64,000 nt of DNA from positions 62,001 through 126,000 of the forward strand of contig NZ_KE386572.1 of NCBI RefSeq assembly GCF_000427665.1, written 5' to 3'. The notes under the pieces were generated by a model. It was not told the origin of the DNA and did not search any database. It saw only the letters and a program-made list of their open reading frames with translations. Both the position numbers and the translations under genes were made by a program. Source of the stretch: Geminicoccus roseus DSM 18922 (GTDB taxonomy: Bacteria > Pseudomonadota > Alphaproteobacteria > Geminicoccales > Geminicoccaceae). Positions 37,830 to 42,469 of the stretch are shown here, piece by piece (positions within the stretch are counted from its first letter, which is position 1; each line of letters opens with the position of its first letter).

Positions 37830-38726
37830 ATGAACCGTGGATCCGCCATCACGAGCCCTGGATGCGCCGCGCCCTCCACCACGCTGGCGGCGGTAGCCTT
37901 CGTGGTCGCCGGGGTGACCCTCTATGCGGTGATGGACGGCACCGGGGTGTTCCTGTCGGACACGCAGAGCGTCGTGCAGATCGTCTGGGCGCGCTACGCC
38001 TTCGCCCTGCCGGTGGTGCTGGCGGTGCTGGCCCGCGACGGCGGCGGCGCCCGGCTGCGCACCCGCCGGCCGTTCACCCAGGCGGCCATCGGCCTGTTCC
38101 CGGTCCTGGCGAGCTTCTCGGTGGCCGGCGGCTTCGGCCTGCTGTCCCTGCCGGAGCTGACCGCGCTGACCTTCGCCGCACCGCTTTTGGTGGTGGCGCT
38201 GTCGGTGCCGCTCTTGCGCGAGCGCACCACCCGCCACGACTGGATCGGGGTGCTGGTCGGCTTTCTCGGCATCCTGGTGGTGGTCCGCCCTGGCGCCGAT
38301 GCCCTGGCCTGGGCGGCGGTCTTCCCGCTCGGCTGCGCGTTCTTCTTCGCCCTCTACCAGGTCGCCATGCGCTTCGTCGGCCGCCACGACGACCCGGTCG
38401 CCACCCTGGCCTGGTCGATCGGCACCGGCCTGGTGGTCACCACGCCCTTGGTGCTCCTCGACTGGCGGCCGCCCAGCGGTGCCGCCTGGGCGGCGATGAT
38501 CCTGACCGGGCTGGTGTTCGGCGCTGCCCAGTACTGCCTGATCCAGGGCTTCCGCCGCGCCCCGCCGGCCAGGCTCACCCCCTTCACCTATACCCAGATC
38601 ATCCCGGCCACCCTGATCGGCATCGTCCTGTTCGGCAGCTGGCCGGACATCTGGGTGATCCTCGGCGCCGCCCTGGTGATCGGCGCCGGGATCTACGTCC
38701 TGCGCAACCGGACCCGCACCGGCTGA
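37830..38726 (+). CDS. EamA/DMT-family exporter
   Basis: A 298-residue inner-membrane protein with ten helices in two EamA repeats (residues about 12-140 and 155-295). Features include VVQIVWARYAFALPVVLAV, LPELTALTFAAPLLVVALSVPLLRERTTRHDW, and LTPFTYTQIIPATLIGIVLFG near the end. The family exports amino acids and other metabolites. ATG 37830 places the first helix normally; an earlier ATG at 37737 would add a long unstructured tail. Substrate unknown. Confidence 0.9.
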   Translation: MNRGSAITSPGCAAPSTTLAAVAFVVAGVTLYAVMDGTGVFLSDTQSVVQIVWARYAFALPVVLAVLARDGGGARLRTRRPFTQAAIGLFPVLASFSVAGGFGLLSLPELTALTFAAPLLVVALSVPLLRERTTRHDWIGVLVGFLGILVVVRPGADALAWAAVFPLGCAFFFALYQVAMRFVGRHDDPVATLAWSIGTGLVVTTPLVLLDWRPPSGAAWAAMILTGLVFGAAQYCLIQGFRRAPPARLTPFTYTQIIPATLIGIVLFGSWPDIWVILGAALVIGAGIYVLRNRTRTG

Positions 38727-38808
38727 GGACGTGGGACGCCCGGCCCGTTTCTGCTACACTGCCCCGTTCGTGCGGAGCCTGGTCCCCCGCGGACGGTATC
38801 GCCTGGTG

Positions 38809-38934
38809 CGTTTTGCACGAACGAACCCGGGAACAACCCGGCCGTTTTGACCAAACGAACCCGGCAAGCCGCGGGCGGATGCGCCGCCAGCGGGACTCGG
38901 CACCCGTTCCGCTCGTTTTGCACGAACGAACCCG
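38809..38934. repeat. Three 21-bp direct repeats with an internal palindrome
   Basis: The 259-base spacer between the EamA gene and soxG contains three 21-bp copies of CGTTTTG-N4-AACGAACCCG at 38809-38829, 38843-38863 and 38914-38934. Copies one and three are identical. Copy two differs at three central bases and forms the palindrome CGTTTtgaccAAACG. Start-to-start distances are 34 and 71 bases. An inverted nine-base core, CGTTCGTGC, lies at 38765-38773. The pattern suggests a cluster of operator sites or an intergenic repeat element. Confidence 0.8.
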
Positions 38935-38985: not shown

Positions 38986-39549
38986 TCAGCCGGCCGCCGC
39001 CAGCGGCGCGTGCCGGCCGATCCAGTCCCAAAGGAACGGCACCAGCGACCGGTCGGTGAACACCCGCACCGTCTCCCCGCGTGCCACCAGGGTCACCGGC
39101 TGCAGGGCCAGAAGCGTCCGGGCCGAGCGGCCATCGGCGATCTCGGCCGGGCAGCCATGCGCCAGCAGGCGGCGGGCGCCTGGGCCAGCCAGCTCGATCG
39201 CCGGCAGCCCGTCGGTCACGTCGGTCACCAGCACCGAGCGCGGCGCCGCTTGCTGCACCGCCCGGACCAGCTCGAACCGCTGGGCCTGGTCGCTGGTCAC
39301 CAGCCAGCGGTCCGGCCCGGTCCAGATCGAGCAGGGATCGGCGCCGGTGCAGCTGCCGGGCGCAGGATCCGGGGCATGGCCGAGCAAGCCCGCCAGCGCC
39401 AGGGCCAGGCCCGGCGCGCCGTGGGTTCCCGCCAGCCCGACCGCCACCCGCACCGGCGCGATCCCGACCCGCAGGCCAGAAACCGCCGGCACCGGCGCCA
39501 GCCCGAACGCCTCGATCGGCCCCAGCGGGGCCAGCTTCGTTTCAGCCAC
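38986..39549 (-). CDS. soxG: Sarcosine oxidase gamma subunit
   Basis: A 187-residue subunit of heterotetrameric sarcosine oxidase. It has the weakly conserved SoxG pattern: SIWTGPDRWLVTS in the middle, SVLVTDVTDGLPAIELAGPGARRLLAHGCP, and the end VFTDRSLVPFLWDWI. The start is read as GTG 39549, which overlaps the soxA end by eight bases; an ATG at 39573 would lengthen it by eight codons. Confidence comes largely from the position after soxA. Confidence 0.85.
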   Translation of the reverse strand: MAETKLAPLGPIEAFGLAPVPAVSGLRVGIAPVRVAVGLAGTHGAPGLALALAGLLGHAPDPAPGSCTGADPCSIWTGPDRWLVTSDQAQRFELVRAVQQAAPRSVLVTDVTDGLPAIELAGPGARRLLAHGCPAEIADGRSARTLLALQPVTLVARGETVRVFTDRSLVPFLWDWIGRHAPLAAAG

Positions 39550-42469
39550 GCAGCCGCTCCCCGGCAGGGTCATAGAACACCGGGCTCACCACCCGCGCCC
39601 GATAGGTCCGGCCCAGATGGAACAGGTCGACCTCGGCCCCCGCCGCCTGCAGCGCCCGGCCATCGGCCAGGATCGCCAGGGCGATCGGATGGCTCAAGGT
39701 CGGCGAGCGGTAGGCGGAGGTGACATAGCCGCGGCTGCGCCGGGTCCCGTCCTCCTGGCGCTCGTACATGTGCGCCCCGGTCGGGATCGCCTCGTCGGCC
39801 ACGCTGTTGACCAGGCCCACCAGCTCCAGCCGGCCGGGATCGCGGCTCACCGGCCGCAGCAGCGAGCGCCGGCCGACGAAATCGTGCTGCTTGCTGCGCA
39901 TCGGTGCGGTGACGCCCAGGTCCTGCGGCTCGCTGTTGCCGTCGGTGTCCCGGCCGATCAGGACATAGCCCTTCTCCGCGCGCAGGATCAGCAGCGCCTC
40001 CGAGCCCAGCGGCACGATCCGCTCTGGCCGGCCGAGATCCGCCAGCCGCCGGTACAAGGCCGGGCCATAGGCGGCCGGCACGCTGAACTCGAACGACAGT
40101 TCCCCGGTGAAGCTGACCCGGGCGATCCGCAGCGGCACCCCGTCCAGCTCGGTCTGCACGAAGCCCATGTGCGGCAGGGCCTTGGCCGACAGGTCGGCCG
40201 CCACCGGCAGGCGCGCCACCACGGACCGCGCCTTCGGCCCGGTCACCGCGAAGGTCGCCCAGGCGGTGGTCACGTTGCTGGCAACCACCTCCAGCTCCGG
40301 CCACCCTGTCTGCCGCCATTCCTCGACCATGGCATGGACCCCGGCGGCATGGCTGGAGGACGGCGACAGCAGGAAGCGGTCCTCGGCCAGCCTGGCCACC
40401 ACCCCGTCATCGTAGAGCTTGCCGTGCTCGGTCAGGAGGAACACGTAGCGCACCCGCCCGACCTTCAAGTCGCTCAGCCGGTGGTAGTAGAGCCGGTCCA
40501 GGAAAGTCGCCGCGTCCCGGCCGCCGACCTCGATCTTGCCGAGCGGGCTGCCGTCGAACAGCGCCACGCCATGGCGCACCGCCAGCACCTCGCGGGCGAT
40601 CGCCGCCTCCCGGCGCTCCTCGCCCTTCGGGTAGAAGGCCGGGCGCGACCAGCCGCCATAGTCCTCGAACACCGCGCCGGCGCGCACATGCTCGCCATGG
40701 GCCGACAGGAGCCGCAGGGGCGTCAGCATGGCGCCCCGCCTGGACCCGGCGATGCCGGCGAACGAGACCGGCGTGAAGGGCGGCCGAAACGTCGTGGTCC
40801 CCACCGCCGGCACCGGCTTGCCGAGCTGGTCGGCCAGGAGCGCCAGCCCGTTCAGGTTGCTGGTCTTGCCCTGGTCGGTCGCCATCCCGAGCGTGGTGTA
40901 GCGCTTGAGATGCTCGACCGAGACATAGTTCTCCTGCACCGCCAGGCCGACATCCTTGCTGGTGACATCGTTCTGGTAGTCGACCCATTGCCGGGCTTTC
41001 GGCCGGTCCAGCTTGCGCCAGATCGCCTGTTGCCAGGGCGGCTCACGCGCCGCCCGCGGCGCCTGGCCGTCGCCGGCACCACCGCCCGCCGCCTGCCCCG
41101 CCCGGTGCCCGTCGCGCAGGCAGCCGGCCGTATCCATCACCCCGTTCGCGGCGCCCACCGTCACCGAGGCCCGCGCCGCCCCGTCCGGCACGAACCCGTC
41201 CAGAGCCTCGTCGAAGCGCAGCCGGCCGCCGTCATGCATGTGCAGGTGCACGGTGGGCGTCCAGCCGCCGGCCGCCGCCAGGAGGTCGCAGCCGATCTCG
41301 ATCCGCCCGCCGCCGCCCAGCGGCTCCACCACCACGCCGCTCACCCCCTTGCGCCCGTGCACGGCGGTCGCCGCCGCGCCGACATGGGTCGGGATCGCCG
41401 GATGCGGCAGGGCGTCGGCGCGCAGGTCGACGATCACCGGCCCCGCGCCCGCTGCCGCCAGCGCTTCGGCAGTCCGCCGCCCGGCCTCGTTGTTGGTCAG
41501 CACCACCGGCGAGCGGCCGGCCAGGATGCCGTGCCGCGCCAGGTAGGCTCTTGCCGCGAACGCCGACATCACGCCCGGCCGGTCGTTGTCCGGGAACACC
41601 AGCGGCCGCTCGATGGCGCCGGTCGCCAGCACCGTGCGGGCCGCGCGCAGCTTCCAGATCCTCTCCGGCGCAAAGCCCGCCGGCATCGCGCGGCGCTCCG
41701 CCAGGACCGCCAGCCCGTGGTCGAACAGGCCGAGCGCCGTGGTGGACGGCAGCAGCGTGACGTTCGGCCGTCCCGCCAGCTCATCCGCCACCGCCGCGAT
41801 CCAGTCGGCGGCCGGCATGCCCTCGATCTCGACCGGGTCGACCAGCAGCTGCCCGCCCGGTGCCGGCTGGTCGTCGGCCAGCACCACCCGGACGCCTTGG
41901 CGCGCCGCCGCCAGCGCCGCGGCCAGCCCGGCCGGCCCGGCGCCCACCACCAGCAGGTCGGCTTGGCCATGGACCTGCGCCCGCTGCAAGGGCTCAGGTG
42001 TGGCCGGCACCACGCCCAGGCCCGCCATCTGGCGGATGCGCGGCTCGAACAGGTGCCAGTCCGGCCGGATAAAGGTCTTGTAGTAGAAGCCGGCCGGGAT
42101 CAGCGGGTGCAGCCGGTCCAAAAAGCCGAACAGGTCCCGCCCGGCCGACGGCCAGCCATGGACGGTCTTCACCACCAGCCCGTCCTCCAGCGGCACCAGG
42201 GTGGCGCGGGCGACCGGGTCGTGGCGGCCGTCCGGGAAGCGCACGTCCAGGATCGCGTTCGGCTCCTCCGCGCCGATCCCCCAAAGGCCGCGCGGCCGGT
42301 GGTACTTGAACGAGCGGCCGAGCACGGTCTGCCGGTTCGCCAGCAGTGCGGCGGCCAGGCTGTCGCCGGCAAAGCCCTCCATCCGCCTTCCCTCGAAGGT
42401 GAAGGAGAGCGGGCGCGTCCGGTCCAACGCCTGGCCGCTGTCGGGAAGCCTCGTGGCCTGGGTGCTCAA
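39542..42469 (-). CDS. soxA: Sarcosine oxidase alpha subunit
   Basis: The large subunit of tetrahydrofolate-linked sarcosine oxidase, 975 residues as usual. The N-terminal ferredoxin-like fold (FTFEGRRMEGFAGDSLAAALLAN, RPRGLWGIGAEEPNA) is followed by an NAD-binding flavoprotein half with VVGAGPAGLAAALAAARQG. The C-terminal third is a GcvT-like aminomethyltransferase domain (HVRAGAVFEDYGGWSRP, TGPKARSVVARL, SFTGELSFEFSVPAAYG, ALLILRAEKGYVLIGRDTDGN). The enzyme demethylates sarcosine to glycine, producing H2O2 and 5,10-methylene-THF. It seems to begin with TTG, overlapping the soxD stop (TTGA). Confidence 0.95.
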   Translation of the reverse strand: MSTQATRLPDSGQALDRTRPLSFTFEGRRMEGFAGDSLAAALLANRQTVLGRSFKYHRPRGLWGIGAEEPNAILDVRFPDGRHDPVARATLVPLEDGLVVKTVHGWPSAGRDLFGFLDRLHPLIPAGFYYKTFIRPDWHLFEPRIRQMAGLGVVPATPEPLQRAQVHGQADLLVVGAGPAGLAAALAAARQGVRVVLADDQPAPGGQLLVDPVEIEGMPAADWIAAVADELAGRPNVTLLPSTTALGLFDHGLAVLAERRAMPAGFAPERIWKLRAARTVLATGAIERPLVFPDNDRPGVMSAFAARAYLARHGILAGRSPVVLTNNEAGRRTAEALAAAGAGPVIVDLRADALPHPAIPTHVGAAATAVHGRKGVSGVVVEPLGGGGRIEIGCDLLAAAGGWTPTVHLHMHDGGRLRFDEALDGFVPDGAARASVTVGAANGVMDTAGCLRDGHRAGQAAGGGAGDGQAPRAAREPPWQQAIWRKLDRPKARQWVDYQNDVTSKDVGLAVQENYVSVEHLKRYTTLGMATDQGKTSNLNGLALLADQLGKPVPAVGTTTFRPPFTPVSFAGIAGSRRGAMLTPLRLLSAHGEHVRAGAVFEDYGGWSRPAFYPKGEERREAAIAREVLAVRHGVALFDGSPLGKIEVGGRDAATFLDRLYYHRLSDLKVGRVRYVFLLTEHGKLYDDGVVARLAEDRFLLSPSSSHAAGVHAMVEEWRQTGWPELEVVASNVTTAWATFAVTGPKARSVVARLPVAADLSAKALPHMGFVQTELDGVPLRIARVSFTGELSFEFSVPAAYGPALYRRLADLGRPERIVPLGSEALLILRAEKGYVLIGRDTDGNSEPQDLGVTAPMRSKQHDFVGRRSLLRPVSRDPGRLELVGLVNSVADEAIPTGAHMYERQEDGTRRSRGYVTSAYRSPTLSHPIALAILADGRALQAAGAEVDLFHLGRTYRARVVSPVFYDPAGERLRG

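Follow-up and report, generated by a model that had tools for sequence, protein, structure and literature searches.

Between two convergent genes of Geminicoccus roseus lie three copies of a 21-bp sequence, and the question raised by this locus is whether they are operators, a repeat element or part of a small RNA. The locus was analysed within a window, by which we mean the whole 64-kb stretch of DNA; positions are counted from its first letter. The copies occupy 38809..38829, 38843..38863 and 38914..38934 in the segment 38732-38986, all on the plus strand; the first and third are identical (CGTTTTGCACGAACGAACCCG), the second (CGTTTTGACCAAACGAACCCG) is 86% identical to them, and the positions and the spacings of 34 and 71 bases given in the original prediction were confirmed. 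When up to 3 mismatches were allowed, exactly 3 matches to the pattern were found in the window, whereas shuffled sequence gave 0.07. The repeats are thus genuine and well above what chance would produce.

The neighbouring genes, one for an EamA-type transporter on the plus strand (37902..38726; Pfam EamA, E 3.7e-24), the other soxG, sarcosine oxidase gamma, on the minus strand (38986..39573; TIGR01375, E 1.9e-13, under the curated cut-off), both point their 3' ends towards the array, and the repeats lie beyond the two stops at 38726 and 38986, as had been described. They had also been placed before the sox genes; they are in fact behind them, and the sox genes in question, soxA and soxG, are genes of sarcosine oxidase. 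The second copy does contain the arms CGTTT-N5-AAACG that had been read as a palindrome, but this is not a feature of the motif family. An inverted core, GTTCGTGC, does exist upstream of the copies (38766..38773, read on the plus strand) and coincides with the predicted 5' end of a transcript; it occurs in one of 25 leaders examined, the window's own, and two other leaders among the 25 have only unrelated 7-mers in common.

A directional motif family in Geminicoccus

The 5.70-Mb genome contains many further copies, and the outcome that would have spoken against a repeat family, a motif found nowhere else, did not arise. The 21-mer pattern gave 127 matches with up to 3 mismatches against 6 for a reversed control, TTTGCACGAACGAACCCG with up to 2 mismatches gave 120 against 0, and the exact sequence AACGAACCCRA was present 142 times against 2; as background, 40 other 20-kb pieces (800 kb in total) held only five cores. 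The consensus, TTTGCAC(G/A)AACGAACCCGAG, is directional; aligned sites extend it to CG-N-TTTGCAC(G/A)AACGAACCCGAG, beyond whose ends nothing is clearly conserved, and written as RNA the site reads UUUUGCACGAACGAACCCGAG. The motif is found at about 45 loci, singly or as same-strand arrays, with 1 to about 20 copies per locus and a single strand throughout each. Comparison of the stretches around some 44 loci showed that each long array has its own higher-order unit (63, 73, 107 or 127 bp, for example), within which the spacers recur in tandem, and that the spacers of one locus are unrelated to those of the others, the sole exception being the duplicated gene pair L043/L050. Neither the literature searched nor the databases yielded a match to the motif, and that literature held no paper on Geminicoccus repeats.

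Among named public genomes, multiple matches were found in Geminicoccus harenae and G. flavidas; other single matches in named genomes resemble chance, and those in a Terriglobia metagenome-assembled genome (L060, L101, L107), three of them exact, belong to another kind of dispersed repeat, whose units are GTTAGGTTGCTGAAAAC and CCGTTAGGTTGCTGAAAAC. The two sister species carry the motif at matching intergenic sites, usually as a single copy where G. roseus has an array: 13 copies at L040 and 12 at L027 each correspond to 1 and 1 in the sisters, 11 at L010 to 1 in a sister, and 11 at L024 to 2 and 1. The G. flavidas contig ends just before the spacer of the focal locus, and the conservation data come from other loci. 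In the pair L070/L109 the motif is 95% identical, whereas the flanking 40 nt are 63% identical upstream and 35% downstream; a promoter block is conserved as well, amid diverged sequence. The orthologous pair L104/L100 is too alike to inform on conservation, and in the pair L081/L092 the motif copies were not placed in register by the aligner. Sites inside the CysS and FtsK genes are present in both G. roseus and G. flavidas, and CysS of G. roseus (L044) has an insert of about 19 codons, absent in G. flavidas, with two extra motif copies.

Since the arrays here usually correspond to one copy in the sisters, those of G. roseus are local tandem expansions; the single site is likely, judged from these comparisons, to be the older state from which arrays arise by tandem duplication. 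The suggestion of a mobile repeat gained no support, given the shared positions in sister species, the locus-specific spacers and this local mode of growth. Functionless minisatellites, whose core is common by chance or descent, would suit the variation of unit length and copy number between loci; they are nevertheless a very improbable explanation, given a core kept across species while spacers diverge, and given the strand rule and promoter described below. The family resembles mycobacterial MIRU/VNTR in its tandem units, about 40 intergenic loci and variable copy number, but its loci share only the 18-20 bp core and not the whole unit, its spacers are unrelated, and it has sense-strand copies within genes. 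With CRISPR arrays it shares same-strand repeats behind a leader promoter; it differs in having spacers that are alike within an array, degenerate repeats and dozens of arrays.

Strand, promoter and predicted transcript

Genes were called with a purpose-written codon-usage script rather than a standard gene finder. Within genes of the three species, 22 clusters were in sense orientation and 1 was antisense, the sense sites including those in CysS, SMC and FtsK. Intergenic clusters were found between convergent genes in 26 cases and between divergent genes, the rarest setting, in 8; gaps between co-directional genes showed no bias (18 with and 15 against), and several of the loci lying against such genes have a promoter of their own. 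The reading frames in which the sites fall vary between and within genes (TNEPE, HERTR, ARTNP), which indicates that the constraint acts on nucleotides. A protein-coding repeat was therefore rejected as a general account, spacings also often not being multiples of three; arrays L027, L036 and L048 do read in frame. Operators would be expected at the promoters of the genes they regulate; these sites instead follow promoters or fall in 3' ends and within genes.

There is a moderate bias of the motif towards the C-rich, probably lagging, strand, seen at about 31 of 45 loci; a KOPS-like polar sequence was rejected because the tendency reaches no further than this. The same bias, together with the frequent 3' location, would fit a protein that binds the motif as duplex DNA within transcribed regions, for instance as a directional roadblock, a transcription terminator or a nucleoid anchor, and the exact 21-bp phasing in genus g13 and the 51-55-bp spacing in family f30 resemble helical phasing. 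We consider such a site at the DNA level unlikely: the spacings in this genome have no 10.5-bp phase (Rayleigh p about 0.33), sense-strand roadblocks inside CysS, SMC and FtsK would be costly, and the orientation of the motif follows transcription. For the same reason of phase, the reading of the window's spacings as one and two units could not be generalized.

Upstream of the three copies, on the plus strand, are a -35-like element, TGGGAC (38732..38737), which fits the T[AG]GGAC found upstream of other arrays and lies inside the profile match, and an extended -10 element, TGCTACACTG (38752..38761). The form TGCTATnCTG was present on the same strand 30-150 nt upstream of 17 of 73 clusters and at none of the mirror positions, against a background expectation of 0.0005 per 120 nt. 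A promoter profile built from 23 other loci, with the window left out, gave the site at 38752 a score of 19.2, compared with a maximum of 18.8 among 1.6 million background positions. From this promoter to the motif core is a distance of 64 nt on the same strand, and 61-77 nt at sister loci. The window's RNA is accordingly predicted to start near 38766. A consensus scan found no terminator at the window; at the sister locus L065, a sequence resembling an intrinsic terminator stands right behind the motif.

The preference of the original prediction for a repeat element or a small RNA over operators was borne out by a motif that is genome-wide, oriented with transcripts and equipped with its own promoter. 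Most likely, as far as sequence comparison can tell, the motif is a recognition site at the level of the transcript and the feature in the window a short untranslated transcription unit with three such sites; the copies as a whole suggest a family of undescribed small RNAs with putative binding sites for some factor. A structured RNA was rejected, as the window RNA showed no excess folding (z -0.37), the motif was not consistently accessible, and no Rfam 15 family was matched at gathering score: the window gave nothing beyond a chance hit, and 14 related loci nothing beyond a tRNA. In predicted folds the motif was not unusually accessible, its pairing being no lower than with shuffled spacers. 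The short RNAs might instead be siblings that use the motif as a seed for pairing with complementary target mRNAs, as a dedicated promoter at near-constant distance, the short units and the terminator at L065 would allow. That arrangement appears improbable, because the sites in mRNAs have the same sense as the short units and are not complementary to them, with one clear antisense in-gene site only.

NGARSRGP genes and the motif in other families

Several arrays lie within or behind genes bearing the signature NGARSRGP (in full, RNGARSRGPxTPEGKARSxQNAxxHGL), of which this genome has seven (L043, L050, L039, L036, L013, L329 and L345) and a relative, G009, up to 17. A sense-strand motif was found at 8 of 8 NGARSRGP loci of the genus and at 19 of 29 others of the bacterial family, in most cases immediately downstream (3') of the conserved domain, with no antisense motif at any of them and a control count of 0; in several cases the genes also have a similar promoter. 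Genomes of the family without an NGARSRGP gene never exceeded 4 net sites (Mann-Whitney p = 0.012, ignoring shared ancestry), and across the class the gene was present in 3 of the 4 other genomes with at least 4 AAACGAACCCRA sites versus 15 of 288 overall (p = 0.0004, again ignoring shared ancestry). Comparison of NGARSRGP proteins with Pfam, NCBIfam, PHROG and PDB found no match, to a transposase or otherwise, and a structure model from the single sequence was unusable (pLDDT 52). We infer that this family is the best candidate for a partner factor.

Beyond the genus, the motif recurs in altered form. Genera g9, g12 and g13 of the same bacterial family have versions of their own, and in G021 an array of TGTCGC..GCGACA palindromes precedes sites that recur every 21 bp; at L148-L151 of that genome, arrays of TGTCGCGTATAACGCGACA-type palindromes stand directly 5' of the 21-bp spaced motif arrays. 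Related AACGAA(C/G)CC(A/G) motifs occur in other alphaproteobacterial families, often beside NGARSRGP genes, and in G179, G445 and G343, from further families, the gene is followed by a related motif, AACGAAGCCA, in sense orientation. An exception to the rule is family f30, where arrays next to NGARSRGP genes are antisense, and G029 and G030 combine many NGARSRGP genes with few motifs. It is possible, if doubtful, that one system extends across several alphaproteobacterial families, in which a degenerate transcript-level AACGAA(C/G)CC(A/G)A, in short units and in mRNAs, is recognised or propagated by NGARSRGP ('RNAxxSTGPRTPEGK') proteins; the links across families consist of short motifs and a modest number of gene loci.

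Some further elements were seen in these relatives. A dispersed element of about 100 nt (L310-L317, in G059 and G189) holds two motif copies 51-55 bp apart around a partly conserved middle, CGTTTGGAATCAAnGGnCCACCTGTGGATAA, which in some copies is like a DnaA box. In the 1.2-Mb genome G128 a conserved element, GGACAAACGAACCCAAATTARCC, with a T-rich tail after it, occurs three times (L291, L292, L293), twice directly behind tRNA genes. Reading frames like KTNP, NEPN and KRTQ occur in other phyla, and are a lead only.

The link to a multi-copy gene family brings to mind a selfish, non-autonomous repeat, spread or maintained by NGARSRGP proteins as REP elements are by RAYT and growing by tandem duplication. 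The enrichment between convergent genes and the tandem expansion even within CysS would agree with this, and the motif is like REP/BIME in being short, intergenic and present in many copies, with a preference for 3' ends. We regard this explanation as rather unlikely. The motif showed neither a palindrome nor terminal repeats, and no target duplication was seen; arrays other than L043/L050 have no common spacers, sites are common to several species, and one would not expect a passive repeat to have its own promoter and a 22:1 sense bias. In contrast to REP/BIME, the motif profile is non-palindromic, with one orientation per locus that follows the transcript, and the candidate partner family matched no transposase in the four databases compared.

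A putative decoy RNA and its meaning

The reading that we favour, tentatively and as something short of probable, is that the interval is a small, probably non-coding unit whose motif RNA is bound by a trans-acting factor, with stand-alone units as decoys. A sigma-70-like promoter at 38732-38761 would start an RNA near 38766, between the convergent genes, carrying three recognition sites, UUUUGCAC(G/A)AACGAACCCGAG; elsewhere in the genome the site would occur singly in other short units, in 3' UTRs and inside mRNAs, or be repeated in long arrays. A sequence-specific factor, for which an NGARSRGP protein is the candidate, would bind the transcribed site; each stand-alone unit would then serve as a decoy, or sponge, with a capacity set by array length, and sites in mRNAs would place those genes under the same control. 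We reasoned that decoys best fit the strand rule, the unit's own promoter, the presence of sites in mRNAs and the growth of arrays. Counting against them are the strict promoter, present in a minority of clusters; the ordinary accessibility of the motif, a window RNA lacking special structure and the lack of a terminator there; the tens of decoy loci, far above known sponge systems; and the antisense arrays of f30 together with the gene-rich but motif-poor G029 and G030.

The CsrB/RsmZ sponge RNAs are short and contain several copies of a binding motif also found in mRNAs, and they sequester an RNA-binding regulator through repeated GGA in hairpin loops. The Geminicoccus family is similar in having a repeated motif in predicted short transcripts and in mRNAs, but its core is AACGAACCCG and not GGA, the motif does not lie in predicted loops, and it is found at tens of loci rather than one to three.

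A core that is kept amid changing surroundings, oriented with transcription and present in the mRNAs of CysS, FtsK and SMC points to a hitherto unrecognised level of gene regulation, one that would span the whole genus and probably reach further. The arrays may account for spurious repetitive open reading frames (TNEPE, HERTR, ARTNP) in annotation, and the motif would offer a first handle on the NGARSRGP family, which has no assigned function.
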